Origin: Chitinophagaceae bacterium
GTDB lineage: Bacteria; Bacteroidota; Bacteroidia; Chitinophagales; Chitinophagaceae
Reading direction: 5' to 3'
DNA length: 64,000 nt
Assembly (NCBI GenBank): GCA_027486835.1
Contig: JAIXOJ010000068.1
Span: forward strand, 1-64,000
Below, piece after piece: positions 1-60,238 of the stretch. The notes under the pieces were generated by a model that was given only the letters and a program-made list of their open reading frames with translations, ran no database searches and was not told the DNA's origin. The number at the start of each line of letters is the position of its first letter. The first letter of the stretch is position 1. The position numbers and the translations under genes were made by a program.

Positions 1-209
1 GGTTAAAGGATGTTAGTTTAGCCCTGAACGAAAGTAGTTTAGGTCTAAAGGATGTTCGTTTAGCCCCAAACCAAAGTAGTTTAGGGTTAAAGGATGTTAG
101 TTTAGCCCTGAACGAAAGTAGTTTAGGGTTAAAGGATGTTAGTTTAGCCCTGAACGAAAGTAGTTTAGGTCTAAAGGATGTTCGTTTAGCCCCAAACCAA
201 GGTAGTTTA
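1..209. repeat. Tandem repeat, 42-bp unit (two 21-bp halves), 5 copies
   Basis: Five back-to-back units start at 1 (first base missing), 42, 84, 126 and 168, in the order A B A A B. Both 21-bp halves of a unit begin with TTTAG, so the basic period is 21 bp. The array touches the left edge and may extend beyond it. In the plus frame starting at base 3 it reads without stops as a leucine-rich heptad peptide (L-K-D-V-S-L-A / L-N-E-S-S-L-G), closing at a stop near 270. It could therefore be the 3' end of a repeat-protein gene or a non-coding array. The repeat itself is certain; its function is unknown. Confidence 0.93.
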
Positions 210-1104
210 GGGCTACAAAAAGTAAGATTAGTGCTAATTAGCTCGGTTAATAAGCTATAAAAGGCCAATATTACTGTAGTGATATTTCTTAAAAGGGTTA
301 AAAAGTCACTTGTTAGAGATAAATGAGTTGAGCTTGTATGCTCATTGTCATTGTTTGGGTGTTGCTGCTTTTTAGAGGGAATTGCAATAGTGCCAATGGG
401 AGCAATCAGGAACTTCCTGATGTTATTTGATCCTCTCCAATTGCCATTATTGAAAACCATGTGTTATCATCGCTTTTGTTGCGATATGGCAAAGAAAGGG
501 AAAATCTTTTATTCAAATTACACACGATTGCGAAAAAATGGAGAGTTGGAAAAAAAAGGCAAAAATCTTCAACTTTTTAACCTTTTGAGGCAATTTTCCA
601 ATAAAAATGCCCCATTTTACTCAGTTTTTTCATTTTTCTTAGCACCTTTTCCTATACAAATTATTTACAAAGGGGTTGATCCAATTCAAAAACCCATCTT
701 TATTTTGTTAACTAAAGGATGGGGATTTTACCATGAAGTGTACGGAAATCAATAGTAAGTACAAGGCTTTCAGTACCTATTGACTGCTTTTTTAAAAAAT
801 GGCGCTTTATTTAAACGCAGTATGTTTTTGCAATTACGCTTTAAAAAACGTAAGCAAGTTGACTTTTTTGAATTGTACTCGAAGTAATTATTTAAAATGA
901 GGTGTACAAGTGTTCGGGCCATTAGAGCGAATGTGACTACAATCATAATTGGTAAAGTGTTAGTCACCATTCGAGCATTCGTGGCATTACCCAAAATGAC
1001 TTATTTCTTAAACGCAACTATTTTGTTATTTAGGAAATTGCAAAAAATCATTCGTGCAATTCTATCAAACCCAAAGGAGGGCTTTTTACGATAGAATTAT
1101 GTTG
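210..1104. other. Non-coding stretch with a dispersed element
   Basis: I see no convincing gene here. The open frames at 345-755 (+), 770-994 (-) and 897-1094 (+) encode low-complexity peptides with no recognisable domain and no signal sequence. The stretch lies downstream of the helicase gene, which ends at 1105 on the minus strand. The segment 833-964 resembles 22875-23007 (listed separately). Confidence 0.6.
833..964. repeat. Dispersed non-coding element, copy A
   Basis: Two conserved blocks match copy B at 22875-23007. The first holds TTTAAAAAA, then TAAGCAAGT, then CTTTTTTGAA. The second begins CCATT, is followed by AGCGAATGTGA, and ends with TTGGTA. The distance from GCAAGT to the end of CCATT is 70 bp here and 71 bp in copy B, so the spacing is kept although the sequence between has diverged. 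No protein reads through both copies. It could be a degenerate mobile or REP-like element or a small RNA. Confidence 0.5.
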
Positions 1105-4100
1105 TTACCTCCCCACCAAATTCAATAAATCAGCTTTACTCAGTGAATGGAAAAAGTCGTTTTCGGCTGTTACTAAATGATTGGCTAAATCTTTTTTGCC
1201 CACTTGTAACAACTGAATTTTTTCCTCTACGGTTTCTGGACAAATCAGGCGGATGGCGGTTACTTTCTTTTCTTGACCAATGCGATACACCCTGTCTATG
1301 GCCTGCTCCTCTGCTGCGGGATTCCACCATGGATCTACTATATATACATAGTCAGCTTCGGTGAGGTTAAGCCCTGTGCCGCCTACTTTTAAGCTAATCA
1401 ATAATACTTGGATGTCCCCATCTTGCTGAAAAGTTTCCACTACTTCTTGTCTGTTTTTCGTGCTTCCCGTGAGGCTTAGGCAGCCGATTTGCTGTTGCTT
1501 CAATTGTATTTCTATCAGGTGTAGCATTTTCACAAATTGGGAGAATACCAACACTTTATGGTTGGCCGCATTGGTGGTCAATTGCTCCAATAGCACTTCA
1601 ATTTTGGCAGAAGTTCCTTCACCCGCAGGGGCATCATTTGCCAACAATAGAGTGGAGTTGCACAATTGGCGCAGCTTGGTAAGCCCTTTGAGCACGTGCA
1701 TGGGGCTGCGCTTGATTTCTTCGCTGCTAGCCGCATCCACATATTCCCTAAATTCTTTTTCATAGGCTTGGTAAATCTTTCGCTGCTCTGGTTTCATTTC
1801 GCAGTAAAGAATCATTTCAGTTTTAGGCGGCAGTTCTGTAGCCACTTGTGCCTTGGTGCGGCGCAATAAAAAAGGGCGAATGCGTTCTTTTAATTCAGCA
1901 GCTCTTTTTTGAATTTTAAATTGGTCGATGGGTACGGCATACACTTCTTTAAAATACCGTTTGTTGCCCAACAGGCCAGGACATGCAAAAGAAAATTGCC
2001 CAAATAAATCGAACGTATTGTTTTCCATGGGGGTGCCACTAATAGCGATTCTGTTGCGGGACTGTAGCAGGCAAACGGCCTTGTATCGTTGCGTTTCTGG
2101 ATTTTTTATTTGGTGCGATTCGTCCAGAAAAACATAACCAAATACAAACTTCTTCAAATGGGCAATATCCAGCAGTAGCGTGTTGTAAGAAGTGATAACC
2201 ACATCATATTCACTAAAGGATTGGCTGTTTTTATCTCTGCCTGCACCATATAATATATGTATAGAAAGGGAAGGGGCAAATTTGGTTAACTCCGTTTGCC
2301 AATTGAAAATGAGGGTAGTGGGTACTACTATCAAATGGGTTTCGGCTGCTCGTTTGCGTTTGAGCAGCAACATAAATGCAATAATTTGAATCGATTTACC
2401 CAAGCCCATATCATCAGCTAGGCAACCACCAAAGCCAAAACCATCTAAGAAATTGAGCCAATTAAGTCCCTCCTGCTGGTAGCTACGCAGCGTACCATTC
2501 AGGGTTTCGGGAACTGCTACTGGTTCAATGCCTTTGAAATTGTAAAGTCGTTGTTGGTATAAGCTGAGTTCGGCCTGCACAGATTCGTCCAACATTTCCG
2601 CATCAAATAATTGTGCTACTGTTTTAAAATTGATTTTGGGAATGTGGATGGATTCGTCATTCACTATTTCCCCCGCTTCAAAGTAGGAGGCGAATTTTTC
2701 AAGCCAATCAACTGGCAATATGCCCACGGTGCCATCATCGAGGGCTACATATTTGCTCTTGTTTCTGGCTGCGACCACCAATTTTTTTAAGGAAGCCTTC
2801 TTTTTGCCAAAACGCACACCTACCTGTACATCAAACCAGTTGATACCACTCACCACTTTTATTTGGATGCTCACTTTGTAAGGATTCAAGCGGTTGTTGG
2901 CTATTTCATTAAATCCAAGAATGGTAATTTGTTGATTTCGCCATACTTCGAAGGCATGGAGAAACCATTCTTCTGCCATAAAATGTTTTTTATGCAGGTA
3001 GAAATAAGTGAACTCATTGTCAATTTGTTCTTCAAAATCGGGGTGCTGCTGCATCAACAAAGCCGTGAACCGAATTTCTGCTGCATCATTTCTTGCCACT
3101 AGAAACGGATTACCTGCATTATCTACCCCATAAACTTGTCGTTTGGTCCGTACTGGTATCTCCACCTCACCATATCGCATCACGGGTTCTACCATCACAT
3201 ATTGGCCCAAATCGGACAGGTAAATAATGCGTTCTTCGGGTTGATCAAATCCGTTTTGGGATAATTGCTGTTTGGTAGCGGGGGGGATATAGGCATAATC
3301 TATGGGGATGGAATCACCCAATGTGGCCAATAATTGTGTCTGAAATATTTTATATTTTGACTGATGCACCAAGAGTTGGCCTTCTTTTTTGCGAAGCCAA
3401 TCTATTACTTGCAAAACCGGTAATTGGCTAATAAGATACCACACACTTTTTTCCGCCGATACAAAACATCCCATTTTCACCTGCAACTGGTGAAAACTGT
3501 ATTCCTCTTCTGCTAATTGCACTCGTGCTCCTATGAAATAAAAGGAATCTTTTTGTTCAATCACCAACCTAAAAGTAGTAGGCAATAAGCTTATTTGAAC
3601 CGATTCGAGACTATTTGCGATTATTTGGTCAGATATTTCGGATAGATGAACATAAAACTTGAAGTCAAGCGGATTTTTTACAATAGCTTTCAATGCCAAA
3701 AGGTCTGAAGCTGTAAATGCCACATTGGGCCGCTGTTGAAATCGGCTTACCGCAGTAAAAAAACGCAGTTCATCAGGGTTTATTGCATTCCAAATACGGT
3801 TTATTGCATCCAGTTTTACAAAGGGAGGTTTGGGCTTTCCTTCCTTAGTTATTGCTGTTTGGTACAATTCTACGAGCAGGTGTTTGTCGTATTTGTGTCG
3901 TTTAAGAATGATGGCAGTGCTAGTCTCTGTATCATCTTTGGTGAATGATGACTCAATAGCCGGGCTAACAGGAAATACTTGATGTTTTAATTGTGCGAGG
4001 GTTTCATTTGTTACCGGAGTTAGGCCAACTATTTTGGGGGTGATGTACAGTTGGGAATGTTCATAACGGAGTTGAAAATAAGCAGTTAAATCTGGTTCAT

Positions 4101-4503
4101 TATCTAAGCCATAATCTTTGGCAATCTGAGTGATTTTTGTTCTGCGTAACTGTTCATCAAAAAATACGGCCCAATCTTCTTTACGAAGTACAGATAGCAT
4201 TATTAGCGCTTGGTGGCTACACAGTTGCGAACCTGTAAAGCTGCAATTACAAAACAACATCAAATGCTGCCCTTCTTGTAGTAGCGACACCTGATAGCGT
4301 GGGGTGGTTTGTATTTGGAAAACAGCTTGATTGATTTGAAGGCTGGTAGGTACTATTTGTTGCCAAGCCCTTGCATCAAGAATAGGTACATTGGCAATAT
4401 GTTGGGCGATGTGGGTTTCGGAAATGGCCGAAAGCTTACGATGCTGAAACACAAATCGGTGATTGTTTGCCAATTCGTCATTGGTTTCCAAATGTTGCTC
4501 CAT
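1105..4503 (-). CDS. SNF2-family DNA helicase/ATPase with SWIM zinc finger
   Basis: The 1132-residue protein is a superfamily 2 DNA translocase of the bacterial SNF2 group, expected to remodel protein-DNA complexes in the cytoplasm. The N-terminus carries a SWIM zinc finger (C85-x-C87, C95-x-H97). A long SNF2-associated region follows to about residue 680. The ATPase core has Walker A DDMGLGKS (697-704), motif II DESH (794-797) and motif III SGTP (822-825). The C-terminal helicase lobe has motif VI QAIDRVYRIGQ (1067-1077). All core motifs are intact and the length is usual for this class. It is monocistronic and divergent from the giant secreted gene at 4991. The physiological role is not known from context. 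Confidence 0.95.
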   Translation of the reverse strand: MEQHLETNDELANNHRFVFQHRKLSAISETHIAQHIANVPILDARAWQQIVPTSLQINQAVFQIQTTPRYQVSLLQEGQHLMLFCNCSFTGSQLCSHQALIMLSVLRKEDWAVFFDEQLRRTKITQIAKDYGLDNEPDLTAYFQLRYEHSQLYITPKIVGLTPVTNETLAQLKHQVFPVSPAIESSFTKDDTETSTAIILKRHKYDKHLLVELYQTAITKEGKPKPPFVKLDAINRIWNAINPDELRFFTAVSRFQQRPNVAFTASDLLALKAIVKNPLDFKFYVHLSEISDQIIANSLESVQISLLPTTFRLVIEQKDSFYFIGARVQLAEEEYSFHQLQVKMGCFVSAEKSVWYLISQLPVLQVIDWLRKKEGQLLVHQSKYKIFQTQLLATLGDSIPIDYAYIPPATKQQLSQNGFDQPEERIIYLSDLGQYVMVEPVMRYGEVEIPVRTKRQVYGVDNAGNPFLVARNDAAEIRFTALLMQQHPDFEEQIDNEFTYFYLHKKHFMAEEWFLHAFEVWRNQQITILGFNEIANNRLNPYKVSIQIKVVSGINWFDVQVGVRFGKKKASLKKLVVAARNKSKYVALDDGTVGILPVDWLEKFASYFEAGEIVNDESIHIPKINFKTVAQLFDAEMLDESVQAELSLYQQRLYNFKGIEPVAVPETLNGTLRSYQQEGLNWLNFLDGFGFGGCLADDMGLGKSIQIIAFMLLLKRKRAAETHLIVVPTTLIFNWQTELTKFAPSLSIHILYGAGRDKNSQSFSEYDVVITSYNTLLLDIAHLKKFVFGYVFLDESHQIKNPETQRYKAVCLLQSRNRIAISGTPMENNTFDLFGQFSFACPGLLGNKRYFKEVYAVPIDQFKIQKRAAELKERIRPFLLRRTKAQVATELPPKTEMILYCEMKPEQRKIYQAYEKEFREYVDAASSEEIKRSPMHVLKGLTKLRQLCNSTLLLANDAPAGEGTSAKIEVLLEQLTTNAANHKVLVFSQFVKMLHLIEIQLKQQQIGCLSLTGSTKNRQEVVETFQQDGDIQVLLISLKVGGTGLNLTEADYVYIVDPWWNPAAEEQAIDRVYRIGQEKKVTAIRLICPETVEEKIQLLQVGKKDLANHLVTAENDFFHSLSKADLLNLVGR

Positions 4504-4990
4504 GTATAATGCCTAAAGAATAAATGTCTATGGGGTGATAAGAAATATTTTAAGAGCGGCGAAGTTGAGGGAAAAGTGGATGCGTGATTTTTTTCATTTT
4601 GGAATCAATTTTTTTGGGTAGCCATCTTTGGGTGCAACTGTACATAATCATTTTCGGTTAGGTAATTTTTGATAAAAACAATGATTTGCACTTTTCTATG
4701 AGTGATAAAGATTCTTATGATGCACACCGCATAATGTCTATATAGGCAAGCAACCAACATTTATGTTACAACCTTCATTGTAGGAATCAAGTTCATGTTA
4801 TACTAGGGTACTAGAGGGCTGGTAATACCAATGTCTTGTACTTACAAGAACATTTTTTATAAAAACAATTATCGCAATGGGGGTAGGTAATTAGTTTTTC
4901 GTCAATAAGCATATTGTTAATGATTCAAAACACTCCAGCAGTTTGTTTTGAATGCTTTGCCATGAAAATTCTAACGATAAATTTCTCAAA
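4504..4990. other. Divergent intergenic region
   Basis: This 487-bp spacer separates the helicase (-) from the giant secreted gene (+). It is AT-rich, with no open frame of interest. A possible plus-strand promoter lies at 4598-4630. Nothing else was recognised. Confidence 0.5.
4598..4630 (+). promoter_or_regulatory. Possible Bacteroidota sigma-70 promoter
   Basis: TTTG at 4598-4601 and CATCTTTG at 4623-4630 are 21 bp apart. This fits the Bacteroidota pattern TTTG-N19..23-TAnnTTTG with one mismatch in the -7 box. It would give the gene at 4991 a 5' leader of about 350 nt. This is pattern matching only. Confidence 0.28.
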
Positions 4991-7900
4991 ATGAAAGTCA
5001 AATTTTACAAAAGCAGTTTTGGCAGAGTTGCCATGTTTGCTCTTCTCTTGTTGGTAACATCAGTTTGGTGCAATGCCATTTATGGACAAACCACCTACAC
5101 CTGGCAAGGAGGCGGAACAACGGGTTCCCCAGGTGCTTGGGCCACCGCCAGCAACTGGTTTTCGTCCGCCACAAGTGCAACGAGTTTGGTTGTTCCGGGC
5201 GGTACAGCTACGGATATCGTGGTTGTTAATAATGGTTGCGTACAGCTTACTACTAACGTGACGATAGCCAAATTGACGGTTGGCAATACTGCGTCCAACC
5301 AAGGGACATTCATTATAGCGAGCGGAAGCACGTTGACGGTGAGCGGTAGTGCGCCAGTCATTATCTCTGGCGGGGTTCTTAACAACGCTGGTTCGTTGAC
5401 CATCACCGCTACAACGGGCAATGGCATTTCGTTCAACAACACAACAGGTACTACTGCATTGCTCACTTCCGGAACGGGTTATTTTGGCAGTGGATCTTTG
5501 AGCATAACCGTAAACACTGCTGGAGGTTTTGCGGTCAATTTTACGAATACCAATTGGGCAAGCCCTACAACAGTGCCTACCATGACATTCAACAACCCCA
5601 CCATTTCGTTGCCATCAAGTACCTCAAGTTCTTTGGTAAACGTTGCGGCTTGCTCCACAGGAACTACAAATGGCATTATTGCTGGTTCCGGAGTAACGTT
5701 GGCCTCTGGTCCTTATGCTTTGATCAGCCAATTGGGCGCGGGCAGCAACACTACGGGAAGTGGTTCGAATTTGACAATCAATTCGGGCTGTACGCTTTCA
5801 TGCACCGGCACTTCCACATCCACTTCTTATGGAATAAACATTAATAATAACTGGGGCGGTACAAGTAGTACCTCTGCCAACGCAACATTGACCAACAATG
5901 GCACCATCAACATTTCGGGTACTTACACCATAGGGGTTCGGATGGTATCCGCTATCGGCAACTCGGGTACCGGACTTACCAAGTTTACGAACGCCGGATC
6001 CTTGAACGCTAACCTGACCGCAGGTAGTAGCGGTGCGCCGATCACGATAAACACATCGAGCAGTAAATACGAAATCGCCAATAGCGGCACGATGAACCTT
6101 ACCAACCTTACGGCAAGCACGGCCCCCATAACTTTCGCTTCCAGCCAAACTGGTACTTTTGCTTTTATCAATAGTGGTACAATCACTGCAATAGGTGGTG
6201 CAGCCATCACGGCAAACGGAACTTTCACTTCCACTTCCATCAATAACACAGGCGGTACTTTTACTGCTAATTATGCACCATCTGGTTTTGCTGCAACAAC
6301 GGGAAATGCCATCAAAAATGGTATTACTTATGTTTGGGGAGGAGCTACTTCGCTGGATTATCAAGTTGCTACCAACTGGACACCTAACAGGGTAACAAGC
6401 AATATTTCATCAAGCGATATTCTGCAATTTTCCAGTAGTCCAGCAGGCACTATAAGCAATGTACCTACGCAATCAATTGGTCAATTGATTGTGAGTGGTT
6501 CCAATACCTCTGTGAGCTTACAAGCAGCCTCAGGTAGTAGTACTACTCTGACTGTAGGCAGCTTAAATAATTCTGGTGATGAAATAAGCGTGGCAAGTGG
6601 ATGTACACTGTCTATTGCTCAAAATGCTACAGGAATTACTTCGGAGATTTTTACCCTTGCTTTGGCAAACATATCAGGGGTCACAGGAAATATTGCAGGG
6701 ACATTGACCATTGCGAAAAATACCGCCACCACTTTTGCGAATGTGTATAACGCCGCAAACGGAGTAACAACTGTTTCTGGAACGGTTAACTATGCCGGAT
6801 TGATAAATAATGCCACCTCTGGTAGTTTGTCTTTTACCAATACATCCACTTTCAATAATCAACGTTCAGATGCGGCATTTCCTGCTGCTTTTTCCAGTAC
6901 CTACAACAGGGTGAATGTTAGCATTGCAACTGGCTTGACACAAAATACAGGGCAAATCCCGGTTAGCAATTTTCCAGCTTCCGTAAATACGCTAACTGTA
7001 AACGATGCTGGTATAACAGGATCTGCCATTTTGAATATTCGATCAGTTTCGGGAGGAGCAGGTGCTTCTCAGACCGCAGATATTACGACATTGAACGTTT
7101 CAAGTGGTAGATTAGGTTTTGGGGTCAATTCTACTGGTGTATCTACTGTCAATATAGGTGCAGGCGGTATCAATGTATCTGGTGGAACGCTTTCGTTGGC
7201 TTATAATAATGACCAAACCGTTATCGTAACAGGGGATATTGCACTTTCTAATTCAGGGATCATTAATCTTTCTTCAACAGGAACGACCAACACAGCCACC
7301 TTGACAGCGAACAATTATACACAGACTGGAAGTAGTACTTTTAATCTTAGTAGTTCAGCACTTGCTACTATAATTTTCAACGTAAAAGGTAATTTTTCGA
7401 TTGCAATAAATAGTACGTTTACGCAAGTATCAGGAGCGAATGCAACCTTAGCTTTCAATAGTTCTAGTCAAGCACAAACTGTGAGCAATGCAGGTACATT
7501 CTCAACTTTGATCAGTAAAGTCCAAATCAACAATACAAATACCTCACCTAACAATACAGTATCGCTTTCAAGTACTTTATCTATCAATGGCACATTGCAG
7601 TTGACTGCAGGGTTACTCGTATTGGGTAGTAATAATCTCACTTTAACTAGTGCAGCCTCACTTTCACCAACAACACCAACTAGTACGAGTTATATAGCTA
7701 CCAACAGCACAGGTAGATTAATCAGGCAATCTGTGCCTACATCCGGCAATACGATATTTCCTATTGGCACGACCAGTTATTATGCACCATTGTCTTTCAC
7801 AGGAGGCACTGCAGGGGCCAACATAACCGTTGGTGTTGCTGGCTCGTTTACAAATAATGTAGTAGTACCTACCAATGTGGTTGTTCTGCAATGGTCCATT

Positions 7901-10900
7901 TTGGCTAGTGCCGCAACGCAGCCCCAAGTTACTTTCCAATACAATAATGATAATGTAGCAGGTGGTTATTCGTCCTCCGGTGCAGTGTTGGGCACTTATG
8001 CAAGCGGTGCATATTCCGAATCTGATTTGGGTACGGTAACCGGATCAGACCCTTTCACCGCGACCAAAACCTTTACATCTAATTTGCCCACCGCCACTGC
8101 AAGTCTCTACGGAATCGGAAATCCCTATTCGTTCATTTCCGGGGTTCCTGGGGCACCCACGGGTGTTTCAGCAGTTGCAGGCAATGCGAGTGCTGCTGTA
8201 TCATTTTCTGCACCGGTTAATATTGGTTCTGGTGCAATTACAAGCTATACTGTTACCTCTAGTCCGGGTGGTATAACTGAGACTGGTGCTGGCAGTCCGA
8301 TAACCGTGAACGGTCTAACCGCTGGCACTGCCTATACGTTTACGGTAGTTGCAACCAACGGTACGGGCAATGGTGCTGCAAGTACCGCTTCGTCCAGCGT
8401 TACCCCCACGGGCACCTACACTTGGACGGGTGCTTCTTCCAACAATTACCAAACTTCCACCAACTGGTCCCCTAATAGGGCCACGCCTTCTTCTTTTGAT
8501 GTTTTGCAGTTCAACGGCAACGCATCGGTTATCAATGTGCCAACACAAACCATCAGCAGGTTGGTATTGTCCGGCACTGCTTCCGTAAGCCTTCAACCCA
8601 TTAGCGGCACGAGTACGACCTTATCTGTCGGTAAATCACATACCAACGGTGTGGACGAAATCAGTGTGCCATCCGGTTGCACGCTCACTTTGGCTGGCAA
8701 TGCTTCTGGCGGGTCGGAGTTTATTACCCTTGGTCTTGCCAGTGGCGTAACGGGTGCAACGGCCTCTTTTGCAGGCACTTTGACCATCAGCCCGAATGCA
8801 ACGGGTACTTTCTTGAACGTTTACAGTGCTGCCAACGGTGTTACTACCATTTCGGGCACCGTAAACAATGCAGGAAGTTTCAGCAGTGCAACCACATCCT
8901 CATTGCTGTTCAGCAGTGGTTCAACTTATAATCATACAAGGACGGACAACGGAACATTCCCTGCGGCTAGCTATACCACCGTCAATGTGGGCATGAGCAG
9001 TACAACTGGATCTTCGACCATTGCGGTCACGAATTTCCCCGCGTCCATCGGCACATTGACCATCAATCAACCTGTTGGGTTCACAGGCTCTTTGAGCATC
9101 AATTCATTGTCGAACGGCGGTGCGACATTGGGTATCGCAAATCTTACCGTACAGAGCGGAACGATAAGTTTTACATCCGCCGTTACAACGATCAACATCG
9201 GTTCCGGTGGCATCAACATTTCGGGCGGTAGGATCAATTTCGCAGCAGGAAGTTCCGCATATAGCTCGACAATTTTTTGCACGGGGAATTTGAGCTTATC
9301 GGGAACCGGCTATATCACGGTGTTTAATTTCTCTGCCGCAGCGTCAACCTGTAGCCTTACGGTAAATGATTTCACGCAATCAGGTTCCGGCAGCATTTTC
9401 TACATAAACTCCGCTTCCAACACCAGTTCCTCAGCAACCTTGACAGTATTGGGCAACTTTAGCAAGACAGCAGGAAGCTTCACGCAAGCAACTGCCGGCA
9501 CAAGCGGCACTTTGGTGATGAACGGAAACGCAGCGCAAACATTTAGTTCAAACGGCTTTGGTACTGGTTTCCCTTCCATCGTTGAAATAAAAAATACAGC
9601 TTCATCCCCTAACAATACCGTTACGCTAAGCACATCGGCAACATTGGGCGGTACATTGAAAATGACAAGTGGCTTGTTGGTTGTGGGTTCATTGAACGTT
9701 ACCTGCGCCGGCACAAGCGGCGGAAGCAGTACATCTTACGTAAACGCTAGCGGTACAGGTAGAATGATCGTAAACGCAGTTCCTTCCGTAGGCAACACGG
9801 TATTCCCTGTAGGTACGGGTAGCAGCTATGCACCACTGACATTTACTGGCGGAACGGCCGGGGCAAACATTACAGTAGGCGTGAAAGGGTCGTTTACTAA
9901 TGCGGTTTTATCGCCCAACAATGTGGTGAGCTTGCAATGGTCGATATTGTCCAGCGCATCCACCACGCCCATGGTGACCTTCCAACACAATTCTTCCGAT
10001 AGAGCCGTTGGGTTTACGTCAACAGGTGCCATCTTGGGAACTTATGCCAGCAGTGCCTATACGGAATCCGCTTTAAGCAACGTGAGCGGCAGCGATCCTT
10101 ACAGCTTTACCAGAACGTTTACTAGTTCATTGCCAACAACTACGGCCAGCCTATACGCCATTGGTAATCCCGGATCCTTTATCGCTACGGTTCCTGGCGC
10201 GCCGACCAATGTCGTAGCCGATGAAGGAAACGCAAGCGCAACCATCACTTTCGATGCACCCGTTAGCAACGGAGGCGCAACCATTACAAGCTATACGGTA
10301 ACCTCAAGCCCTGGCAATTTCACGGCAACAGGTTCCGCAAGCCCGCTAACGGTTACGGGGTTGACCAATGGAACTACATACACCTTTACGGTAAAAGCAA
10401 CCAACAGTGCAAGTGCCAGCGCGGCAAGCAGTGCTTCCAACTCCGTAGTCCCTACGCCAACAACTATTTGGGACGGTACTGCTTGGAGTTCAGGGGTGCC
10501 GACAACCACTTCCACTGTGGTATTTGCAGGGAACTATAGTACTTCCATTGCCTTGTCCGTTAAGTTGTTGACCATCAATTCCAATGTTACCGTCTCTACT
10601 ACATCTACCATTACCGTAACCGGTTCAACCTTTACTAACAACGGTACTGTTTCCAACGGAACGGTGGTGCTAGCAGGAACCAGTGCGCAAACCATTGCAG
10701 GTACGGGAACCGTAAGCAATATCACTGTCAACAACAGTGCTGGCGCAACCGTAGCGAGCGGAAGCAATAAACTGAACATCACGGGCATTTTGACCTTGCA
10801 GTCAGGCACATTGACTACCAACGGCAATGTGGTGTTGAAATCTACTAGTATCACCAATAGTGCATTTGTTGCCCCAGTAGGTACAGCTGGCAATAGTGGT

Positions 10901-12475
10901 AGCATTAATGGAACAGTACAAGTAGAGCGTTTTATTCCAAAAGGATATAGGGCTTGGAGAGATATTGCACCTAGTGTGTTCAATGCTGGTAGCATATTCA
11001 ATAACTGGCAAGAGACTGGTGGCTATGCCAATAATGGTTATGGTTTGTTTATCACAGGTACTACAGCGGCTACCAACGCCCATGCAGTAGATGCTACTAC
11101 TGGGCTTGACCAGTCTAGTAATAGCGTTAAATCTGCATATACCTACACAGGAGGCACTTGGAATGCAGTAAGCAACACCAAGACCACCAACCTCAACCCA
11201 TTCTTAGGTTACCGTTTATTGGTTCGTGGGGATAGAACATCCAATTTATTTACTACACCAGTTTCTACAGTAGGCACTACCGGTTGGTTGTTAATGTACA
11301 ATGCAACCATACTTCGTGCAAAAGGCAACTTGATTACAGGGAATGTACTTTATAGTACTTCGGGCATCACCAATAGTGTTGCTGGATCAACCTACAACAG
11401 TGCTTCATTTGGGTTAAACAGCAGTTCCACCACTGGATTTAGCTCTGTTGCCAATCCTTATGTTGCGCCGATTGATTGGAAAAACATTTGGGACAATGGC
11501 CGTGCGGTTAATTTAACTGCTAACTATTACTACCTAGACCCAACACTAGGTTCATCTGGCGCTTATGTTTCTTACAACGCAATTAGCGATGCTACTAGTA
11601 ATGGAGCAATAGGTACACGCCGTTATATCCAGGCTGGTCAGGCATTTTTTGTGGAAAACAACAACAGTACTGCACCAAGCTTAACCATTATTGAAGCAGA
11701 CAAGGCCATTACTTCTGCCAAAACAACAGTGTTTGGTAGCACAAACCGCAACCGTTTGACCATCAATTTGATAAAAGAAAATGGAAGTGAGTTGAAACAA
11801 ATGGATGGAGCTGTTGTAATTTTTGACAAAGGTTTCAGCAATGGAATTGGTCAAGAAGATGCAAGGAAGATGACCAATCCAGGTGAAAACCTCGCTATCA
11901 ACCACAATGGTCAATCATTAAGTATCGAAGGTCGTCAGCCAGCAATAGCAGATGAAAAGTTGCCTTTAAGCCTAAATCAAATGGTTAATGGTACATACCA
12001 GTTATCAATCGATGCATCTGCATACAAAACCGAAAATCTATCAGTTTATTTAGTGGACGCTTTAGATAACAGTGAAACATTGTTGAACAATGGTATCAAT
12101 AATAGCTGCTTTACAGTTGATGCAGCCAATCAAGCTACTTATGCCAACCGATTCAGTGTTGTGTTCAAAGCTGCTTCTAAAGCCGATAGAACTGTTCCAC
12201 AAATTATTGATGCAACATTCCAAGTTTATCCAAACCCAGTGGTTGGAAATAAAGTAAACATCAGAATGAGTAGCGATGCAGTATCAAATAAATATGTGGT
12301 AAGTATTATCAATAGCTTAGGTATGAAAGTGTATAGTAATCGTTTCAGTTATACGGCAGGTAAGAACGGTATTGAATGCATATTACCTGATGGTTTATCC
12401 AAAGGGGTTTATCAAATATCCATTCAAACTGAGTCGAAGCAACCCATTGGAACTACTAGCATCATTGTAGAATAA
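4991..12475 (+). CDS. Giant T9SS-exported surface protein with beta-solenoid-like repeats and two FN3 domains
   Basis: The 2494-residue secreted protein is Thr/Ser/Asn/Gly-rich. I chose ATG 4991 because it gives a normal signal peptide (n-region KVKFYKSSFGR, hydrophobic core, end at IYGQ near residue 32); an in-frame ATG at 4952 adds 13 residues. Modules of the type YxW-G...NW-x-P begin near residues 33, 446 and 1142, each followed by beta-strand repeats. Fibronectin III domains lie near 1053-1140 and 1735-1820, both opening with PGAPT. A conserved module with GYRL..RGDR (R2079) and ANPY follows. The last 85 residues form a type A T9SS sorting domain (FQVYPNP start, GVYQI near the end). It is probably an adhesin or matrix/cell-surface protein; no catalytic site was seen. 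Base composition changes abruptly inside the gene (see findings). Confidence 0.9.
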   Translation: MKVKFYKSSFGRVAMFALLLLVTSVWCNAIYGQTTYTWQGGGTTGSPGAWATASNWFSSATSATSLVVPGGTATDIVVVNNGCVQLTTNVTIAKLTVGNTASNQGTFIIASGSTLTVSGSAPVIISGGVLNNAGSLTITATTGNGISFNNTTGTTALLTSGTGYFGSGSLSITVNTAGGFAVNFTNTNWASPTTVPTMTFNNPTISLPSSTSSSLVNVAACSTGTTNGIIAGSGVTLASGPYALISQLGAGSNTTGSGSNLTINSGCTLSCTGTSTSTSYGININNNWGGTSSTSANATLTNNGTINISGTYTIGVRMVSAIGNSGTGLTKFTNAGSLNANLTAGSSGAPITINTSSSKYEIANSGTMNLTNLTASTAPITFASSQTGTFAFINSGTITAIGGAAITANGTFTSTSINNTGGTFTANYAPSGFAATTGNAIKNGITYVWGGATSLDYQVATNWTPNRVTSNISSSDILQFSSSPAGTISNVPTQSIGQLIVSGSNTSVSLQAASGSSTTLTVGSLNNSGDEISVASGCTLSIAQNATGITSEIFTLALANISGVTGNIAGTLTIAKNTATTFANVYNAANGVTTVSGTVNYAGLINNATSGSLSFTNTSTFNNQRSDAAFPAAFSSTYNRVNVSIATGLTQNTGQIPVSNFPASVNTLTVNDAGITGSAILNIRSVSGGAGASQTADITTLNVSSGRLGFGVNSTGVSTVNIGAGGINVSGGTLSLAYNNDQTVIVTGDIALSNSGIINLSSTGTTNTATLTANNYTQTGSSTFNLSSSALATIIFNVKGNFSIAINSTFTQVSGANATLAFNSSSQAQTVSNAGTFSTLISKVQINNTNTSPNNTVSLSSTLSINGTLQLTAGLLVLGSNNLTLTSAASLSPTTPTSTSYIATNSTGRLIRQSVPTSGNTIFPIGTTSYYAPLSFTGGTAGANITVGVAGSFTNNVVVPTNVVVLQWSILASAATQPQVTFQYNNDNVAGGYSSSGAVLGTYASGAYSESDLGTVTGSDPFTATKTFTSNLPTATASLYGIGNPYSFISGVPGAPTGVSAVAGNASAAVSFSAPVNIGSGAITSYTVTSSPGGITETGAGSPITVNGLTAGTAYTFTVVATNGTGNGAASTASSSVTPTGTYTWTGASSNNYQTSTNWSPNRATPSSFDVLQFNGNASVINVPTQTISRLVLSGTASVSLQPISGTSTTLSVGKSHTNGVDEISVPSGCTLTLAGNASGGSEFITLGLASGVTGATASFAGTLTISPNATGTFLNVYSAANGVTTISGTVNNAGSFSSATTSSLLFSSGSTYNHTRTDNGTFPAASYTTVNVGMSSTTGSSTIAVTNFPASIGTLTINQPVGFTGSLSINSLSNGGATLGIANLTVQSGTISFTSAVTTINIGSGGINISGGRINFAAGSSAYSSTIFCTGNLSLSGTGYITVFNFSAAASTCSLTVNDFTQSGSGSIFYINSASNTSSSATLTVLGNFSKTAGSFTQATAGTSGTLVMNGNAAQTFSSNGFGTGFPSIVEIKNTASSPNNTVTLSTSATLGGTLKMTSGLLVVGSLNVTCAGTSGGSSTSYVNASGTGRMIVNAVPSVGNTVFPVGTGSSYAPLTFTGGTAGANITVGVKGSFTNAVLSPNNVVSLQWSILSSASTTPMVTFQHNSSDRAVGFTSTGAILGTYASSAYTESALSNVSGSDPYSFTRTFTSSLPTTTASLYAIGNPGSFIATVPGAPTNVVADEGNASATITFDAPVSNGGATITSYTVTSSPGNFTATGSASPLTVTGLTNGTTYTFTVKATNSASASAASSASNSVVPTPTTIWDGTAWSSGVPTTTSTVVFAGNYSTSIALSVKLLTINSNVTVSTTSTITVTGSTFTNNGTVSNGTVVLAGTSAQTIAGTGTVSNITVNNSAGATVASGSNKLNITGILTLQSGTLTTNGNVVLKSTSITNSAFVAPVGTAGNSGSINGTVQVERFIPKGYRAWRDIAPSVFNAGSIFNNWQETGGYANNGYGLFITGTTAATNAHAVDATTGLDQSSNSVKSAYTYTGGTWNAVSNTKTTNLNPFLGYRLLVRGDRTSNLFTTPVSTVGTTGWLLMYNATILRAKGNLITGNVLYSTSGITNSVAGSTYNSASFGLNSSSTTGFSSVANPYVAPIDWKNIWDNGRAVNLTANYYYLDPTLGSSGAYVSYNAISDATSNGAIGTRRYIQAGQAFFVENNNSTAPSLTIIEADKAITSAKTTVFGSTNRNRLTINLIKENGSELKQMDGAVVIFDKGFSNGIGQEDARKMTNPGENLAINHNGQSLSIEGRQPAIADEKLPLSLNQMVNGTYQLSIDASAYKTENLSVYLVDALDNSETLLNNGINNSCFTVDAANQATYANRFSVVFKAASKADRTVPQIIDATFQVYPNPVVGNKVNIRMSSDAVSNKYVVSIINSLGMKVYSNRFSYTAGKNGIECILPDGLSKGVYQISIQTESKQPIGTTSIIVE

Positions 12476-17224: not shown

Positions 17225-18790
17225 ATGAAATACGTATTGTTTATAGTATTTATTCTGCCCTCTCTTGTATTTGCCCAGCAAAACAATCGTCCCAATATCA
17301 TCTTCATTTTCAGTGACGACCATGCCAATGCTGCCGTGAGCGCATACCATGATGACCGCAAACTATTGAACACGCCCAATATTGATAGATTGTCCAAGGA
17401 AGGGATGACGTTCAACCGTTGTTTGGTCACGAATGCTATTTGTGGTCCAAGCCGTGCTACCGTTTTAACCGGGAAATACTCGCACCAAAATGGTTTTTAC
17501 AACAACGAAACCACCCCGTTCGACGGTTCGCAACAAACTTTTCCTAAGCTATTACAGAAGGCAGGATACCAAACGGCACTCATTGGCAAATGGCACCTCA
17601 TCAGCGACCCTACTGGTTTTGACCATTGGGAAATATTGGTGAATCAAGGTCAATATTATAACCCGCCCATGATCAAAGACGGAAAGAAAGTGAAATACGA
17701 AGGGTATGTAACAGATGTTTTGACGGATTTGTCTTTGGATTGGCTGAACAGCAGGGATACTGCAAAACCATTTCTATTGATGTGCCACCAAAAGGCGCCG
17801 CACATGCCTTGGGAACCTAACTTGAAACACCTAAACTTTGATAATGACCGTAAATATCCTGAACCGCCCACTTTGTTTGATGATTACGGCAATAACCGTG
17901 GCTTGGCATGGAAAGACCAATACATGTCCATTGCCAAAACCTTCAACGATGACCATTTAAAATTGAACCCACCTGTTGATGTAAACGAGGAACAATTGAA
18001 AGAGTGGAACAAATATTATGAACCCAGAAATGCTGCTTTTAGGGCTTCCAAACGCTCTGGTCAAGATAGCATCCGTTGGCGTTATCAACGCTACATGCAC
18101 GACTATCTGGCCTCATTGGTATCGGTCGATGAAAGTGTGGGCAAAATATTGGACTATCTAAAAGCGCACGGATTGGACAAAAACACGATAGTCGTTTATT
18201 CCAGCGACCAAGGGTTCTTTCTGGGGGAACATGGTTGGTTCGACAAGCGTTGGATATTGGAAGAATCCCTGCGCACCCCGTTTTTATGTCGTTGGCCAGG
18301 CGTGGTTAAACCTGGGACTGAGAACAATAAAATCGTGTCATTATTAGATGTGGCAGAAACATTTGTAGAAGTAGCAGGTGTTCCTAAACCTTCGGATATG
18401 CAGGGCAACAGTTTATTGCCATTGTTAAAAGGTGAAAGCCCCAAGGATTGGCGCACCAGTTTTTACTACCATTATTACGAATATCCCCGTTGGCATCGGG
18501 TGCGTCCGCATTATGGAGTGGTAACGGACAGGTACAAGTTGGTGCATTTCTACAAACCCGATTTGGATGAATGGGAATTGTACGACCTCAAGGCAAACCC
18601 AAAAGAAACCATCAATTTCATCAAAACACCCTCCTACGCCAAAACCATCGTGAAGCTGAAAGCAGAACTTTCGAGGCTGGAGAAGGATTTGAAAGTCCCG
18701 CCCATCAGCGAAGAACATCGTTCCGATTATGGCAGTGCCCCCTTCAGCGACCCTGCCTTGATGCCATTGAATAGCGAGAAGAAGCATTGA
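17225..18790 (+). CDS. S1-family sulfatase, Cys-type (CGPSR)
   Basis: The 521-residue exported sulfatase hydrolyses sulfate esters, presumably from glycans in the periplasm. ATG 17225 was chosen because it starts a clean signal peptide (MKYVLFIVFILPSLVFAQ); the codon six bases upstream is TTG. The formylglycine motif is C73-G-P-S-R77. Metal-binding D31-D32 lies in IFIFSDDHANA, GKWH is at 121-124, and the second metal/active-site block SSDQGFFLGEHG is intact. The cysteine must be converted to formylglycine, in most bacteria without oxygen by anSME; no such maturase is in the window. It is first of three sulfatases in a row after two beta-helix genes. The sulfatase subfamily is not determined. 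Confidence 0.93.
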   Translation: MKYVLFIVFILPSLVFAQQNNRPNIIFIFSDDHANAAVSAYHDDRKLLNTPNIDRLSKEGMTFNRCLVTNAICGPSRATVLTGKYSHQNGFYNNETTPFDGSQQTFPKLLQKAGYQTALIGKWHLISDPTGFDHWEILVNQGQYYNPPMIKDGKKVKYEGYVTDVLTDLSLDWLNSRDTAKPFLLMCHQKAPHMPWEPNLKHLNFDNDRKYPEPPTLFDDYGNNRGLAWKDQYMSIAKTFNDDHLKLNPPVDVNEEQLKEWNKYYEPRNAAFRASKRSGQDSIRWRYQRYMHDYLASLVSVDESVGKILDYLKAHGLDKNTIVVYSSDQGFFLGEHGWFDKRWILEESLRTPFLCRWPGVVKPGTENNKIVSLLDVAETFVEVAGVPKPSDMQGNSLLPLLKGESPKDWRTSFYYHYYEYPRWHRVRPHYGVVTDRYKLVHFYKPDLDEWELYDLKANPKETINFIKTPSYAKTIVKLKAELSRLEKDLKVPPISEEHRSDYGSAPFSDPALMPLNSEKKH

Positions 18791-18829
18791 TTAGTGGTTA
18801 GTGATTAGTTGTTAGTTGTTAGAGGTTAG
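18790..18829. repeat. Short GTTAG-type simple repeat
   Basis: Overlapping TTAGT/GTTAG pentamers run from the sulfatase stop codon for 40 bp. No hairpin or protein signal is associated with it. Confidence 0.6.
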
Positions 18830-18919: not shown

Positions 18920-18987
18920 TTAATTTGAATGATTCTTGTTACATCATTTTATCCCGATTACAGTAGAGATTCAAAAAGATTCTAAAA

Positions 18988-19031
18988 GCCCTGAAAGGGC
19001 GAAATATGTTAGCCAAGGGTGTAGCCCTTGG
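18988..19031. repeat. REP-like double palindrome
   Basis: Two adjacent hairpins, GCCCTGAAAGGGC (18988-19000) and CCAAGGG-tgtag-CCCTTGG (19013-19031), have the layout of repetitive extragenic palindromes mobilised by REP-associated tyrosine transposases. Only one copy is in this window, so dispersal is an inference. Confidence 0.5.
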
Positions 19032-19096
19032 TTAATTGGTTATTGGTCAATTGGTCAATTGGTTAATTGGTAATTGGTAATTGGTAATTGGTTAGT
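19029..19096. repeat. TTGGTAA/TTGGTCAA simple repeat
   Basis: About nine 7-9 bp variants of AATTGGT follow the REP-like element and end 35 bp before the ATG at 19131. The tract is AT-rich and has no stem of its own. It could lie in the leader of the next sulfatase gene. Confidence 0.7.
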
Positions 19097-22708: not shown

Positions 22709-22834
22709 ATTTGACTCCTTTTGAGGCTACTAACCTCCCTTTTGCGGCAGCTAAGTCCCCTTTTGCAGCAGCTAAGTTCCCTTTTGCGGCAGCTAACCTC
22801 CCTTTTGCGGCAACCAACCTCCCTTTTGCCCCTT
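22709..22834. repeat. Tandem repeat, 21-bp unit, 5-6 copies
   Basis: Units start at 22730, 22751, 22772, 22793 and 22814, and a weaker copy precedes at 22709. The core is CTAA-CCTCCCTTTTGCGGCA. All units are exactly 21 bp with no spacers, so it is not CRISPR. One frame on each strand is open through it (N-L-P-F-A-A-A on plus, a K-R-E-V-S-C-R type heptad on minus). Confidence 0.93.
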
Positions 22835-22874
22835 TTGAGCATTTTTAGAGCGTTTCTAGACTATTTTTTTAAGC

Positions 22875-23007: not shown

Positions 23008-23159
23008 ATGTATTGATTGTATCCTTGTATTCTTAGCAATAACCCTTAATGGCTTTTTTGTTTGGTTTAATAAGACTAGATTTTTTGAACCGCATTGTTT
23101 AATGTCGTTAAATAAAAATAGAATAGGGGCTTCAAATACTAATTACGTCATTGTTACGA

Positions 23160-37078: not shown

Positions 37079-37915
37079 TTATATGGCTAAGCGTTTTGGT
37101 AAATTAAGTAAAACGAAAAGGGTTATAATTTGCCAAATCAATTTTGTATTATTTTCAGGAAAACATATAAAATATGAAAAAGAATGCATGTGTAGTGTCT
37201 TTTTTAATAAAATATACTGCCATAACCCATGGTTTTGACTGTGAATTAAAAGCGAGGGTAGCCTACTTCAAACCTTTTTAATAGTTTCAAGCTTTCATCG
37301 CTTCAATCCAAATTCATACAATCCCTAATCTGCAAAGAGATGTATCTACAATAGCTTAGGACACAGTGACTGTGTTACAAAAAGCATCTAAATAAACTGA
37401 TTTTTGTATCTAAAACCGACGGCATGTCATGCGTCATCGACAGCATGTCATGCGAAAAAGACGGGATGTCATTCGTCATCGACAGTATGTCATGTGAAAA
37501 GGTCGGGATGTCATTCTTCATCGACAGCGTGTCATGCAAAAAGGACGGGATGTCATGCGTTGCCGACAGCGTGTCATTCGAGAAGGACGGGATGTCATGC
37601 GAAACCCTCGGAAAATGTCTTGAATACCAAAGAAAATGTCCTGAATACCAAAGAAAATGACCTGAATTTGAGATAAAATGTCTTGAGTTCGAAAAAAAAT
37701 GTCTTGAATTGCAATACAAATAACCTGAACAATGCAGTATGCCTCCTAAAACCATTTGAAATCATCATGAATACGCTTGTTGGTGTCATCAAGTCTTACG
37801 AATAAGCCATTGCTCCTTCTATAAATCAACATGTTTTCAAAAAATTTAAGACGATTGTCCTCGTTTTCAAACCATCCTTACAAAACATGAATTGCTCACC
37901 CACAACAGATTAATC
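37079..37915. other. Intergenic region with 21-bp array
   Basis: This 837-bp spacer has no supported gene. A 51-codon frame beginning at 37083 has no recognisable features. The array at 37422-37736 takes up over a third of it. The rest is AT-rich and featureless. Confidence 0.6.
37422..37736. repeat. Tandem repeat, 21-bp period, 15 units in two blocks
   Basis: Units start every 21 bp from 37422 to 37716. Block 1 (37422-37610, nine units) alternates two versions built on ATGTCAT, one ending TCATCGACA and the other AAAAGGACG, giving a 42-bp super-period. Block 2 (37611-37736, six units) has a different sequence built on AAAATGTCTTGAAT yet keeps the 21-bp step. There are no spacers and no cas genes. 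Frames open through it on both strands encode heptad peptides. Confidence 0.93.
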
Positions 37916-39637: not shown

Positions 39638-39866
39638 ATTTTAATGAGATAAAAATTATTCAACTGATTCTTTGAAAAAAAAGCTTGAACACATACCTAT
39701 TGATTTGAGATTGCAAAACCCTGTTCATTATTTCAATATCACCCATTGCTTTGTCATTATCTTTTAATTGAAATTCATATTTGATTATGGATTTTGATTC
39801 ATTTTTTTCAACTGTAACTCAATTACTAATCAATCCTTATTTTCAGAGATTTTATAGAGTATGCTG

Positions 39867-40139
39867 GAGCTTTCATAAAGTATTTGGGAGCTTCCACGTA
39901 TTGCGTGAGAGCTTTCACGGAGTGTGCGTGAACTTTCACGGAGTACGCGTAAGCTTCCACAGAGTGCGCGTGAGCTTCCACGTATTGCGAGTGAGCTTCC
40001 ACGGAGTGCGTGGGAGCTTTCACGGATTGTGCGTGAGCTTTCACGGAGTACGCGTAAGCTTCCACAGAGTGCGCGTGAGCTTTCACGGAGTGCGCGTGAG
40101 CTTTCACAGAGTGAACGGGAGCTTACATGATTTGCAATA
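39867..40139. repeat. Tandem repeat, 21-bp unit, 13 copies
   Basis: Units of the form GAGCTTTCACGGAGTGCGCG+T start every 21 bp from 39867 to 40119 without a single indel. Units 3-5 and 8-10 match each other in their private variants (TACGCGT, AAGCTTCCACAG), showing a higher-order duplication of five units. Frames on both strands are open (S-F-H-G-V-R-V on plus; S-V-K-A-H-A-H on minus). It lies between the sialidase remnant and the transporter stop codon. Confidence 0.94.
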
Positions 40140-40162
40140 AAATATAAACAGCTTAATATGTA

Positions 40163-54383: not shown

Positions 54384-54413
54384 TTGATAACACCCAAAAC
54401 TATTTAAATAGCC

Positions 54414-54596: not shown

Positions 54597-54598
54597 TC

Positions 54599-54772: not shown

Positions 54773-54791
54773 TCTTGCTACAAATTCTCAC

Positions 54792-55178: not shown

Positions 55179-55225
55179 TTGGCTATCGATTGCTATTTGC
55201 AAAACCCAAAACATTTTTTAAAACG

Positions 55226-59254: not shown

Positions 59255-59275
59255 TTTGATTATAATTGCATAGAG

Positions 59276-59313
59276 AAAAAGGCGTGGTTTCTTAAGTGAA
59301 ACCACGCCTTTTT
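59276..59313. terminator. Strong terminator after the amylase gene
   Basis: AAAAAGGCGTGGTTTC and GAAACCACGCCTTTTT form a perfect 16-bp stem with a 6-nt loop, followed by ATTTTAA. It is 22 bp after the stop codon. A-runs on the left make it active on both strands in principle. Confidence 0.92.
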
Positions 59314-59608
59314 ATTTTAATAAAAGGATGTTATGCTAACACCAATTTCAAATCCTACATTAATTTGAGTCATCCTAAAAACTGTTGAAAAATTTAGGTG
59401 TAATTGACAAAAATGTAGTTGTTTTTTGTCTTAGTGTTGTTTTTTTTACACCCTTTTTCGTTGTAAGTTTTATAAAGCTTTTTCAATCAATATCAGCCTT
59501 TGTTTAAAGCCTTATTTTTACTCAAAACCATTCCAATAGATCGTTTTGAGGCCATCGCTGAGTTAAGAATGATGGTAATAAATGGCCCCATACTTAAATT
59601 CTAATAAC

Positions 59609-60238
59609 AATAGGAGAATTCCGACTGGTACAAATTGACCGATTTGCCCTGGTGGGAGAACTCCGACTGGTATAAATTGTCCGATTTGCCCTAGTAGGAG
59701 AACTCCGACTGGTACAAATTGACCGATTTGCCCTGGTAGGAGAACTCCGACTGGTATAAATTGTCCGATTTGCCTTGGTAGGAGAACTCCTACTGGTATA
59801 AATTGTCAGTTTTGCCCTAGTAGGAGAACTCCGACTGATACAAATTGACCGATTTGCTACGGTAGGAGAACTCCGACTGGCATAAAACAGTTGTTTTGCC
59901 CTAGTCAAGAGAAGGCGACTGGCATAAAACAATTGTTTTACCCTAGTCAAGAGAAGGCGACTGGCACAAAACAATTGTTTTGCCCTAATCAAGAGAAGGC
60001 GACTGGTACAAAACAATTGTTTTGCCCTAGTCAAGAGAAGGCGACTGGCATAAAACGATTGTTTTGCCCTAGTCAAGAGAAGGCGACTGGCATAAAACAA
60101 TTGTTTTGCCCTAGTCAAGAGAAGGCGACTGGCATAAAACAATTGTTTTGCCCTAATCAAAAGAAGGCGACTGGTACAAAACAATTGTTTTGCCCTAGTC
60201 AAGAGAAGGCTACTGGCGTAAAACGTTACCTTTTTATG
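59609..60238. repeat. Tandem repeat, 42-bp unit, 15 copies in two families
   Basis: Units start at 59609 and then every 42 bp to 60197, with no indels. The first six contain GGAGAACTCCGACTGGTA and GATTTGCCCT. The last eight contain TCAAGAGAAGGCGACTGGCA and TTGTTTTGCCCT. The seventh unit (59861-59902) is a hybrid: left 20 bp from the first family, right 22 bp from the second. The last copy (60197) decays. Both families share GACTGG and TTGCCCT at fixed positions. Confidence 0.95.

Follow-up and report, generated by a model that had tools for sequence, protein, structure and literature searches.

The window, a 64,000-nucleotide stretch of a contig from a Chitinophagaceae bacterium, contains five tandem repeat arrays that share a step of 21 bp, and a few hundred such patches, mostly with this step and unlike one another in sequence, are present in this bacterium and its sister species. 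We tentatively regard the arrays as lineage-specific, non-coding intergenic minisatellites in which a constraint at the level of the DNA, probably a bound protein, fixes the unit length at two helical turns. The class is marked by unlike sequences, a single step length, an intergenic location, the absence of both a codon phase and an RNA-strand signature, and turnover between species.

When the window was scanned at lags of 4-129 bp (72 % identity within 60 bp), only lags of 21, 42, 63, 84, 105 and 126 gave matches, and these were at five places (Table 1). The original prediction of five arrays with a common 21-bp step (two drawn as 42) was borne out. It also stated that no indels could be seen in the arrays, and this holds for the TRF rows with a period of 21 or 42 in the window, which have 0 % indels, but not for array 3, which consists of two sub-arrays with a 23-bp step at the joint (37592 to 37615). 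Longer-period TRF rows that bridge 5a and 5b have 1-2 % indels. The five arrays are mutually unlike, as had been stated, but arrays 2, 3 and 5 do have relatives elsewhere in the genome. Those of array 2, which has a sulfatase gene on one side and a 3434-codon ORF on the other, are on contigs C63, C101, C125 and C202 of the same genome. The relatives of array 3a are diverged (72-79 % identity; C16, C101, C173 and C212), and a counterpart of array 5b is 91 % identical (G000:C77:16866-17171). No second copy of array 4, which lies between GH32 and MFS genes, was found in the genome.

Table 1. Repeat arrays in the window
Array	Position	Range in scan	Strand	Unit and copies
1	1..215	1-242	.	Ten 21-bp steps, GTTTAG-containing units; 21-bp lattice carrying a 42-bp superstructure
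2	22717..22829	22707-22843	.	21-bp unit, 5.4 copies
3a	37417..37605	37399-37734 (array 3)	.	Nine 21-bp steps
3b	37611..37721		.	About five 21-bp steps; one 23-bp joint offsets 3b from 3a
4	39888..40124	39854-40141	.	21-bp unit, 11.3 copies; 105-bp superstructure
5a	59611..59880	59592-60246 (array 5)	.	42-bp unit, 6.4 copies
5b	59874..60224		.	Related 42-bp unit, 8.4 copies; register as in 5a

Core words recur at a 21-bp step in array 1 (GTTTAG, 10 times), array 2 (CTTTTG, 6 times) and array 4 (CAC(G/A), 11 times), and GACTG is spaced by 42 bp (84 bp once) across 5a and 5b. The 42-bp unit of array 1 has reverse-complement symmetry (z 5.6 relative to column shuffles), and this array is possibly truncated, because the start of the contig abuts it. 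By eye, the ATGTCAT core of array 3a is mostly constant and its linkers are of two alternating kinds, forming a 42-bp superstructure. The unit of array 5a includes, also by eye, the dyads GGAGAACTCC and AAATTGACCGATTT with centres 21 bp apart; when 5a and 5b were pooled, their consensus lacked the second dyad at +21 (rank 0.77). The only other TRF rows in the window were a 249-bp repeat within a large ORF and repeats of 7, 8, 14 and 23 bp at 18788-18829 and 19028-19094.

A 662-kb sample of the same genome yielded 53 intergenic arrays, of which 40 have a period of 20-22, 40-42 or 82 bp. Other species of the genus, sampled over 655 kb, yielded 54, of which 36 are also in this period class, bringing the total for the genus to 76/107 in 1.32 Mb. 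The identical scan of 781 kb from outside the genus gave one weak case. In a TRF census, which allows indels, 94/134 arrays in the genus were in the class versus 2/15 outside it. The histogram of periods for the genome and its relatives is not evenly spread but peaks sharply at 21 bp and near its multiples (40-42, 63 and 82), and this peak, with almost nothing outside the genus, supports the shared cause that had been proposed for the period. However, to call the period exact was too strong, as the step ranges from 20 to 22 bp. Extrapolation from the density suggests about 300-400 arrays per genome. Within the sample, 18 of 61 contig ends are within 120 bp of an array, and the presence of arrays at about one third of the sampled ends helps to explain the poor assembly of these genomes. 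TRF recorded no indels in 61/81 arrays, with indel bases numbering about 5 for every 100 mismatched ones, and the register test revealed one real +1 shift among 72 trimmed arrays. Depletion of indels is not claimed here as a sign of selection, because 7 of 11 other arrays are likewise indel-poor.

Where arrays are placed tracks spacer length and not gene orientation. The 56 arrays assigned to spacers (33 tandem, 16 divergent and 7 convergent) match the background, and no preference for promoter-bearing spacers was detected among them. One genome was sampled per species, and comparisons of copy number are between species only. Whether a particular gene has a neighbouring array is mostly not conserved. 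For one sulfatase gene, 21- or 42-bp arrays lie upstream in each of the four close orthologues that were examined (G004, which is the query, G006, G007 and G008); by eye, the units in G004 and G006 are related, G007 has a similar core with other linkers, and G008 differs. More distant copies of this sulfatase family have arrays at 4/11 loci, and arrays were found beside 2/8 and 4/13 loci of two other gene families. Between species, the arrays next to orthologous genes vary in copy number as well as in sequence.

The arrays of 42 bp are themselves 21-bp lattices (lag-21 identity, z 5.4). For the 12 arrays with a 42-bp period, the mean local dyad score peaked at 10.5 bp (3.17) and 21.0 bp (3.67) from the main dyad, with the remaining non-zero distances scoring 1.54-2.67. 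Mirror symmetry in the 19 arrays of 40-42 bp exceeds that of random intergenic DNA (z 4.3), and the second dyad is absent (rank >0.5) in 5 of these. By contrast with these, the 51 arrays with a 20-22-bp period had no excess of dyads over random intergenic DNA (z 1.0). A dyad in every unit was rejected as a defining trait, since relative to intergenic DNA only arrays of 40-63 bp stand out. In all, 13 of 72 arrays had dyads at p<0.05 when compared with shuffles and 8 when compared with intergenic DNA, and 27 passed the test of whole-unit symmetry against column shuffles. A purine/pyrimidine wave of 21 bp was detected (z 3.7 over intergenic DNA), and helical phasing of A-tracts was weak (z 1.3 versus intergenic DNA for S/W at 10.5 bp). 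In L045 (16203-16352) and L056 (7752-7793), a core is kept between unlike linkers of equal length, as judged by eye, and L144 and L147 include units of opposite orientation that are in register. Mismatches between adjacent units are clustered 1.46-fold (z 12) in the class versus 2.07-fold in other arrays (14 pairs) and, because arrays outside the class cluster too, this leaves a selected core unproven. Counts of k-mers over 65 consensuses, after 7 family duplicates were dropped, revealed no general motif; small excesses were seen, for example of GCGACAA (in 3) and TAACTGA (in 4, versus 0.27 expected).

If a two-turn constraint is responsible, slippage or unequal recombination would grow and shrink the arrays, which may sometimes spread into other spacers, and a unit length of about two turns of B-DNA would be kept by an agent that wraps or otherwise binds double-stranded DNA and needs successive units on one face, with the sequence itself almost unconstrained. 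The likeliest agent would be a DNA-binding or nucleoid-associated protein of the genus, bound as a series of dimers; this would explain both why cores outlast linkers and why many arrays of 40-42 bp have dyads about 20-21 bp apart. The periods of 41, 82, 20, 40 and 22 bp are a better fit to about 10.25-10.5 bp per turn than to codons. Also in favour are the shared period across the genus, the 21-bp lattice within the 42-bp arrays, the dyad spacing and mirror symmetry of arrays of 40-42 bp, the purine/pyrimidine wave, the kept cores in L045 and L056, and the sulfatase orthologues, in which the step persists as sequence changes. However, the analysis turned up neither such a protein nor a motif common to the arrays, dyads are at background level in the 20-22-bp arrays, few genes keep an array from one species to another, and placement that tracks spacer length would be expected of neutral repeats too. 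Nearly as likely as a bound protein, and likewise no better than possible, is a purely mutational 21-nt ruler, namely an enzyme of the genus, active in replication, repair or recombination, that duplicates about 21 bp regardless of sequence, with neutral arrays that are purged from genes by purifying selection. Such a ruler would be consistent with a period independent of sequence, the dependence on spacer length, the turnover among species and the existence of dispersed array families. Two-copy repeats outside the catalogued arrays (period 16-70) also point to it, with 2/2 at 21 bp when 90 % identity was required and 12/27 at 80 % (2 are heptamer-like and 2 represent one place). The 9-mer lag test was dropped as evidence of births at 21 bp, as 5 of the 8 pairs in the genus are heptamer repeats. 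However, in some of the two-copy repeats the cores are identical while the linkers are unlike, and the one at L049 4695, which matches at 15/15 core bases and 2/6 others, is poorly accounted for by duplication and random decay. The opposite orientations in L144 and L147 and the dyads in the 40-42-bp arrays would demand an extra step, and we know of no enzyme with a duplication ruler of about 21 bp. Whether it is a protein or an enzyme, a sequence-agnostic ruler of two helical turns may build or maintain several hundred unrelated intergenic arrays on one lattice, though this is somewhat doubtful; if true, it would mean a phased, satellite-like scaffold within a bacterial chromosome.

It is unlikely that the arrays are operators. 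Transcription factors of the AraC/HTCS type bind direct repeats spaced by about 21 bp, and the arrays resemble direct-repeat operators (AraC/XylS-type and iterons) in placing repeats two turns apart on one helical face. Several are close to carbohydrate genes, and an excess of exact 9-mer pairs at lag 21 extends beyond the genus (6 versus 0.7, 2 of the 6 heptamer-like). However, this genome has 24 AraC-type domains for a few hundred arrays, and the numbers of domains and arrays do not track each other, because ten other genera of the family, arrayless in the sampled stretches, carry from 3 to 126. Promoter-bearing spacers are not favoured, and no recurrent binding motif was found across the 65 consensuses. 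Spread as REP/BIME-like palindromic mobile repeats by a Y1 (IS200/RAYT-like) transposase appears just as improbable, though Y1_Tnp matches are present in 12/13 genomes of the genus. REP/BIME elements (PMC3733652) are likewise numerous, short and intergenic, with dyads, clusters and both unit orientations, but the dispersed, partly dyad-bearing arrays are on a fixed 21-bp lattice. REP families have one genome-wide sequence, and no single palindromic family was found here, the arrays having no common sequence and array 4 being unique. The 20-22-bp units are no more palindromic than the intergenic background, and there are only 4 Y1 matches in this genome for a few hundred arrays. Tandem RNA hairpins acting as terminators, mRNA stabilisers or processing sites are less probable still; some units are self-complementary and many arrays are between co-oriented genes, but wobble-type mismatches at dyad pairs in 27 arrays are strand-symmetric (G.T 69, A.C 61), with 23 sense and 29 antisense in co-oriented spacers. 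Spacer orientation is that of the background, and the single Rfam match in the window is away from the arrays, with none at them. Selection for heptad-peptide repeats, also part of the original prediction, can be rejected with little hesitation. Seven codons do equal 21 bp and some frames remain open, but the variable columns have a codon-phase bias at p<0.05 in 0/62 arrays (summed maximum 328 versus 329.7 expected), open frames are not in excess (113 versus 106 expected) and periods of 20, 22, 40, 41 and 82 bp are not multiples of three.

No class that matches the arrays was found in the literature searched. Their head-to-tail, intergenic units with internal variation are like those of bacterial VNTR minisatellites but, while ordinary VNTR periods differ within one genome, most arrays here are on one period. 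The periods of bacterial intergenic repeats are usually viewed as accidents of local sequence, and a genus whose unlike arrays keep to one period offers a natural experiment on the determinants of repeat length. The outcome either way would be a novel mutational ruler or helical-phase selection, and a DNA-organising protein could emerge. By eye, most arrays repeat the whole unit including linkers, unlike CRISPR, in which unique spacers of constant length separate the repeats. Intergenic tandem repeats underlie noncoding deletions in lake Planctomycetota, according to PMC9426551. Heptamer (TAACTGA-type) intergenic direct repeats are recorded, in PMC4679880, from Beggiatoaceae, Cyanobacteria and some Bacteroidetes, and are, like the arrays, intergenic, patchy among lineages and of fixed unit length, certain species having many sets in one genome; they may also terminate contigs and be lacking in close relatives. 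However, heptamers are of one sequence, and the arrays differ in sequence, have a step of 21 bp and are not built of a 7-bp (STRR/TAACTGA) unit. An origin of the 21-bp units from 7 bp was rejected on this basis (lag-7 similarity, z -0.75 in 48 consensuses of 21 bp). A separate class of 7/14-bp repeats is also present in the genus.

Tandem similarity in the window, scanned at lags of 4-129 bp, was confined to multiples of 21 bp, and the matches coincided with the five places named in the original prediction, with TRF concordant. Word positions gave a step of 21 bp in arrays 1, 2 and 4 (numbered along the window) and mostly 42 bp in array 5. The steps had been predicted to be exactly 21 or 42 bp, and this stands except in array 3, where a single 23-bp step separates two sub-arrays. 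The source genome is 6.40 Mb in 219 contigs (99.3 % complete), the window lies within an 83.4-kb contig, and the closest named relative encountered was a Chitinophagaceae bacterium MAG (L035; 76 % identity in one protein). Including the window, relatives of array 2 occur on five contigs and of array 3 at five places; the array 5 family occupies two places, and array 4 had no second copy in this genome.

We sampled 40 further stretches of this genome (662 kb with the window) and 11 other congeneric species (655 kb in all), calling genes with a script that uses codon usage. Sets from beyond the genus comprised 363 kb from 13 genomes, a further 289 kb from the order, and 129 kb from 29 loci in the phylum. 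Intergenic arrays of unlike sequence stepping by 20-22, 40-42, 63 or 82-83 bp are referred to here as the class. The shared period was borne out genome-wide, as class periods were found by lag scan in 40 of the 53 intergenic arrays of this genome. In the rest of the genus this was true of 36/54 arrays, from 8 of the 11 species, and samples from the three species without class arrays were just 8 to 23 kb. Exact multiples of 21 (21, 42 or 63) made up 35/53 and 27/54, respectively. None of the three intergenic arrays detected by lag scan in the first outside set belonged to the class, the second set yielded one weak lag-21 case (L189, a candidate intergenic array at a contig end), and tandem arrays of any period were absent from the 29 loci (129 kb) scanned in the third. 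With indels allowed, TRF placed 48/67 arrays of this genome, 46/67 from the rest of the genus and 2/15 from the first outside set in the class. Two class arrays were genic by scoring. The density in this genome, 6.0 per 100 kb, scales to 386, and we give the total as 300-400 because arrays are common at contig ends and these are over-represented in the sample; a class array lay within 120 bp of 18 of the 61 true contig ends sampled, compared with 2 % of internal sequence. Twenty SNF2 helicase-gene loci of the genus were left out of these counts, and five of them, including that of the window, carry class arrays.

Upstream of a sulfatase gene, arrays were present in all four close orthologues (81-100 % protein identity to the G004 query) for which the upstream region was obtained (G004, G006, G007 and G008), a count that leaves out three close orthologues represented by N-terminal pieces (G001, G010 and G011; 84-93 % identity). 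Both flanking genes were confirmed to match for G004 and G008 only. By eye, the units of G004 and G006 are related, the G007 array has a similar core and different linkers, and G008 has an unlike 42-bp unit. More distant copies (57-67 %) had class arrays upstream in 4 of 11 cases (G001, G004, G007 and G011), and two of the other seven had 7/14-bp arrays instead. Arrays precede a carbohydrate-kinase gene in 4/13 species, two of the nine array-less loci having upstream sequence of no more than about 106 and 306 bp. Here, the unit appears by eye to be common to G003 and G004 and to differ in the others; in these two species, units of opposite orientation meet and form hairpins whose arms measure 19 and 27 bp. 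A third gene had an array on its 3' side in 2/8 species, with unlike sequences and a different neighbour past the array in each. Of 56 arrays, 33 lie in tandem, 16 in divergent and 7 in convergent spacers, a distribution that tracks spacer length, spacers >100 bp amounting to 111, 50 and 25 kb, respectively, with array bases counted.

No motif common to the arrays was found among the consensus units of 65 arrays, and no 7-bp sub-period in the 21-bp consensuses. A 21-bp lattice underlies the 42-bp arrays. Self-complementarity exceeded the intergenic background in 19 arrays of 40-42 bp (z 4.3) and in two 63-bp arrays (z 2.5), with no excess in 51 arrays of 20-22 bp (z 1.0). The mean dyad score of 12 arrays of 42 bp peaks at offsets of 10.5 and 21.0 bp relative to the main dyad. 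For the 19 arrays of 40-42 bp, the half-unit site ranked in the best 11 % in ten and in the lower half in five, among them the pooled consensus of array 5 (combined p 3e-5). All array lengths pooled, a purine/pyrimidine wave of 21 bp stands out over intergenic DNA (z 3.7). Conserved and variable columns are clustered (71 arrays, z 6.6), as are mismatches between adjacent units (1.46-fold, z 12; orthologous intergenic DNA gave 0.95), but mismatches also cluster in a small set of other arrays (2.07-fold, 14 pairs). In 30 arrays, paired cells at dyad positions numbered 285 versus 256 in shuffles (z 4.8) and double changes 24 versus 14.8, figures to be taken with caution because units within an array are related.

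These data ask for a sequence-blind ruler near two helical turns. A bound protein would account for periods close to helical values, for dyads in the longer units and for the contrast between core and linker, and is slightly preferred over a mutational ruler that sets the step; the latter would account for the neutral placement and rapid turnover of the arrays. At 24 in this genome, AraC-type regulators are too few, and their counts in other genera (3 to 126) do not follow the arrays; Y1 transposases are present but few.

Selection for heptad peptides, as originally suggested, found no backing, variable columns being even across codon positions in the 62 arrays with periods divisible by three (328 versus 329.7 expected; p<0.05 in 0/62). 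Open frames numbered 113 against 106 expected from column shuffles, and arrays of 20, 22, 40, 41 and 82 bp cannot stay in frame, which argues against peptides. Departures from dyad pairing were of G.T type in 69 cases and A.C type in 61 (sense 23, antisense 29), and thus neither RNA strand is favoured; RNA hairpins likewise found no support. Rfam had no match at the window arrays, the sole window match falling elsewhere. Titles and abstract starts, with subscription journals thinly covered, revealed no 21-bp-locked class of unlike intergenic arrays, which is weak evidence of novelty.

Two-copy repeats outside the catalogued arrays (period 16-70, 80 % identity) had a period of 21 in 12/27 cases in the genus (two at one place, two heptamer-like) and 3/8 beyond it. 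Exact 9-mer pairs peaked at lag 21 (8 versus 1.9 in the genus, 6 versus 0.7 beyond), 5/8 and 2/6 of these being heptamer repeats. Small repeats therefore also prefer 21, though numbers are small. A weak preference may exist beyond the genus, perhaps reflecting ordinary operator pairs spaced two turns apart.

TAACTGA is among the enriched 7-mers, occurring in 4/65 class consensus units (0.27 expected); PMC4679880 describes this heptamer as repeated between genes in other bacteria. A second class of intergenic arrays has a 7/14-bp period (TTAGTGG-, CTAACCA- or AAGTTGA-like) and also occurs beyond the genus.

Positions of hairpins, other repeats and further elements
Feature	Position	Remarks
Opposite-orientation hairpin	L144 749-794	Reverse strand
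Opposite-orientation hairpin	L147 949-1006	Reverse strand
7/14-bp-class arrays	Window 18788-18829, 19028-19094	
7/14-bp-class arrays	L013 3107-3222; L048 6592-6749; L080 18251-18351	
7/14-bp-class arrays	L092 1741-1856; L109 2897-3091	
7/14-bp-class array	L056 14668-14747	Unit orientation flips mid-array
Acido-Lenti-1 RNA (RF01687)	Window 18987-19031, - strand	43.3 bits, E 1.7e-6; abuts start of 7/8-bp array at 19028
2507-codon ORF	Window 4952-12475	
3434-codon ORF	Window 23151-33455	
249-bp repeat, 2.8 copies	Window 28246-28935	Inside the 3434-codon ORF
CCCCTAAAGGGG-type palindromes	L009 15511-15648; L015 6300-6430	Distinct element adjoining 21-bp arrays, by eye
54-57-bp intergenic arrays	L012 8990; L019 8704; L085 7640; L089 15100; L096 14034	Small group, same genome as window
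72-bp-period array	L171 (G012) 3612-4992	Long; adjoins SNF2 helicase gene; possibly intragenic
19-bp tandem array	L194 15122-15343	Near-perfect; same order, beyond genus
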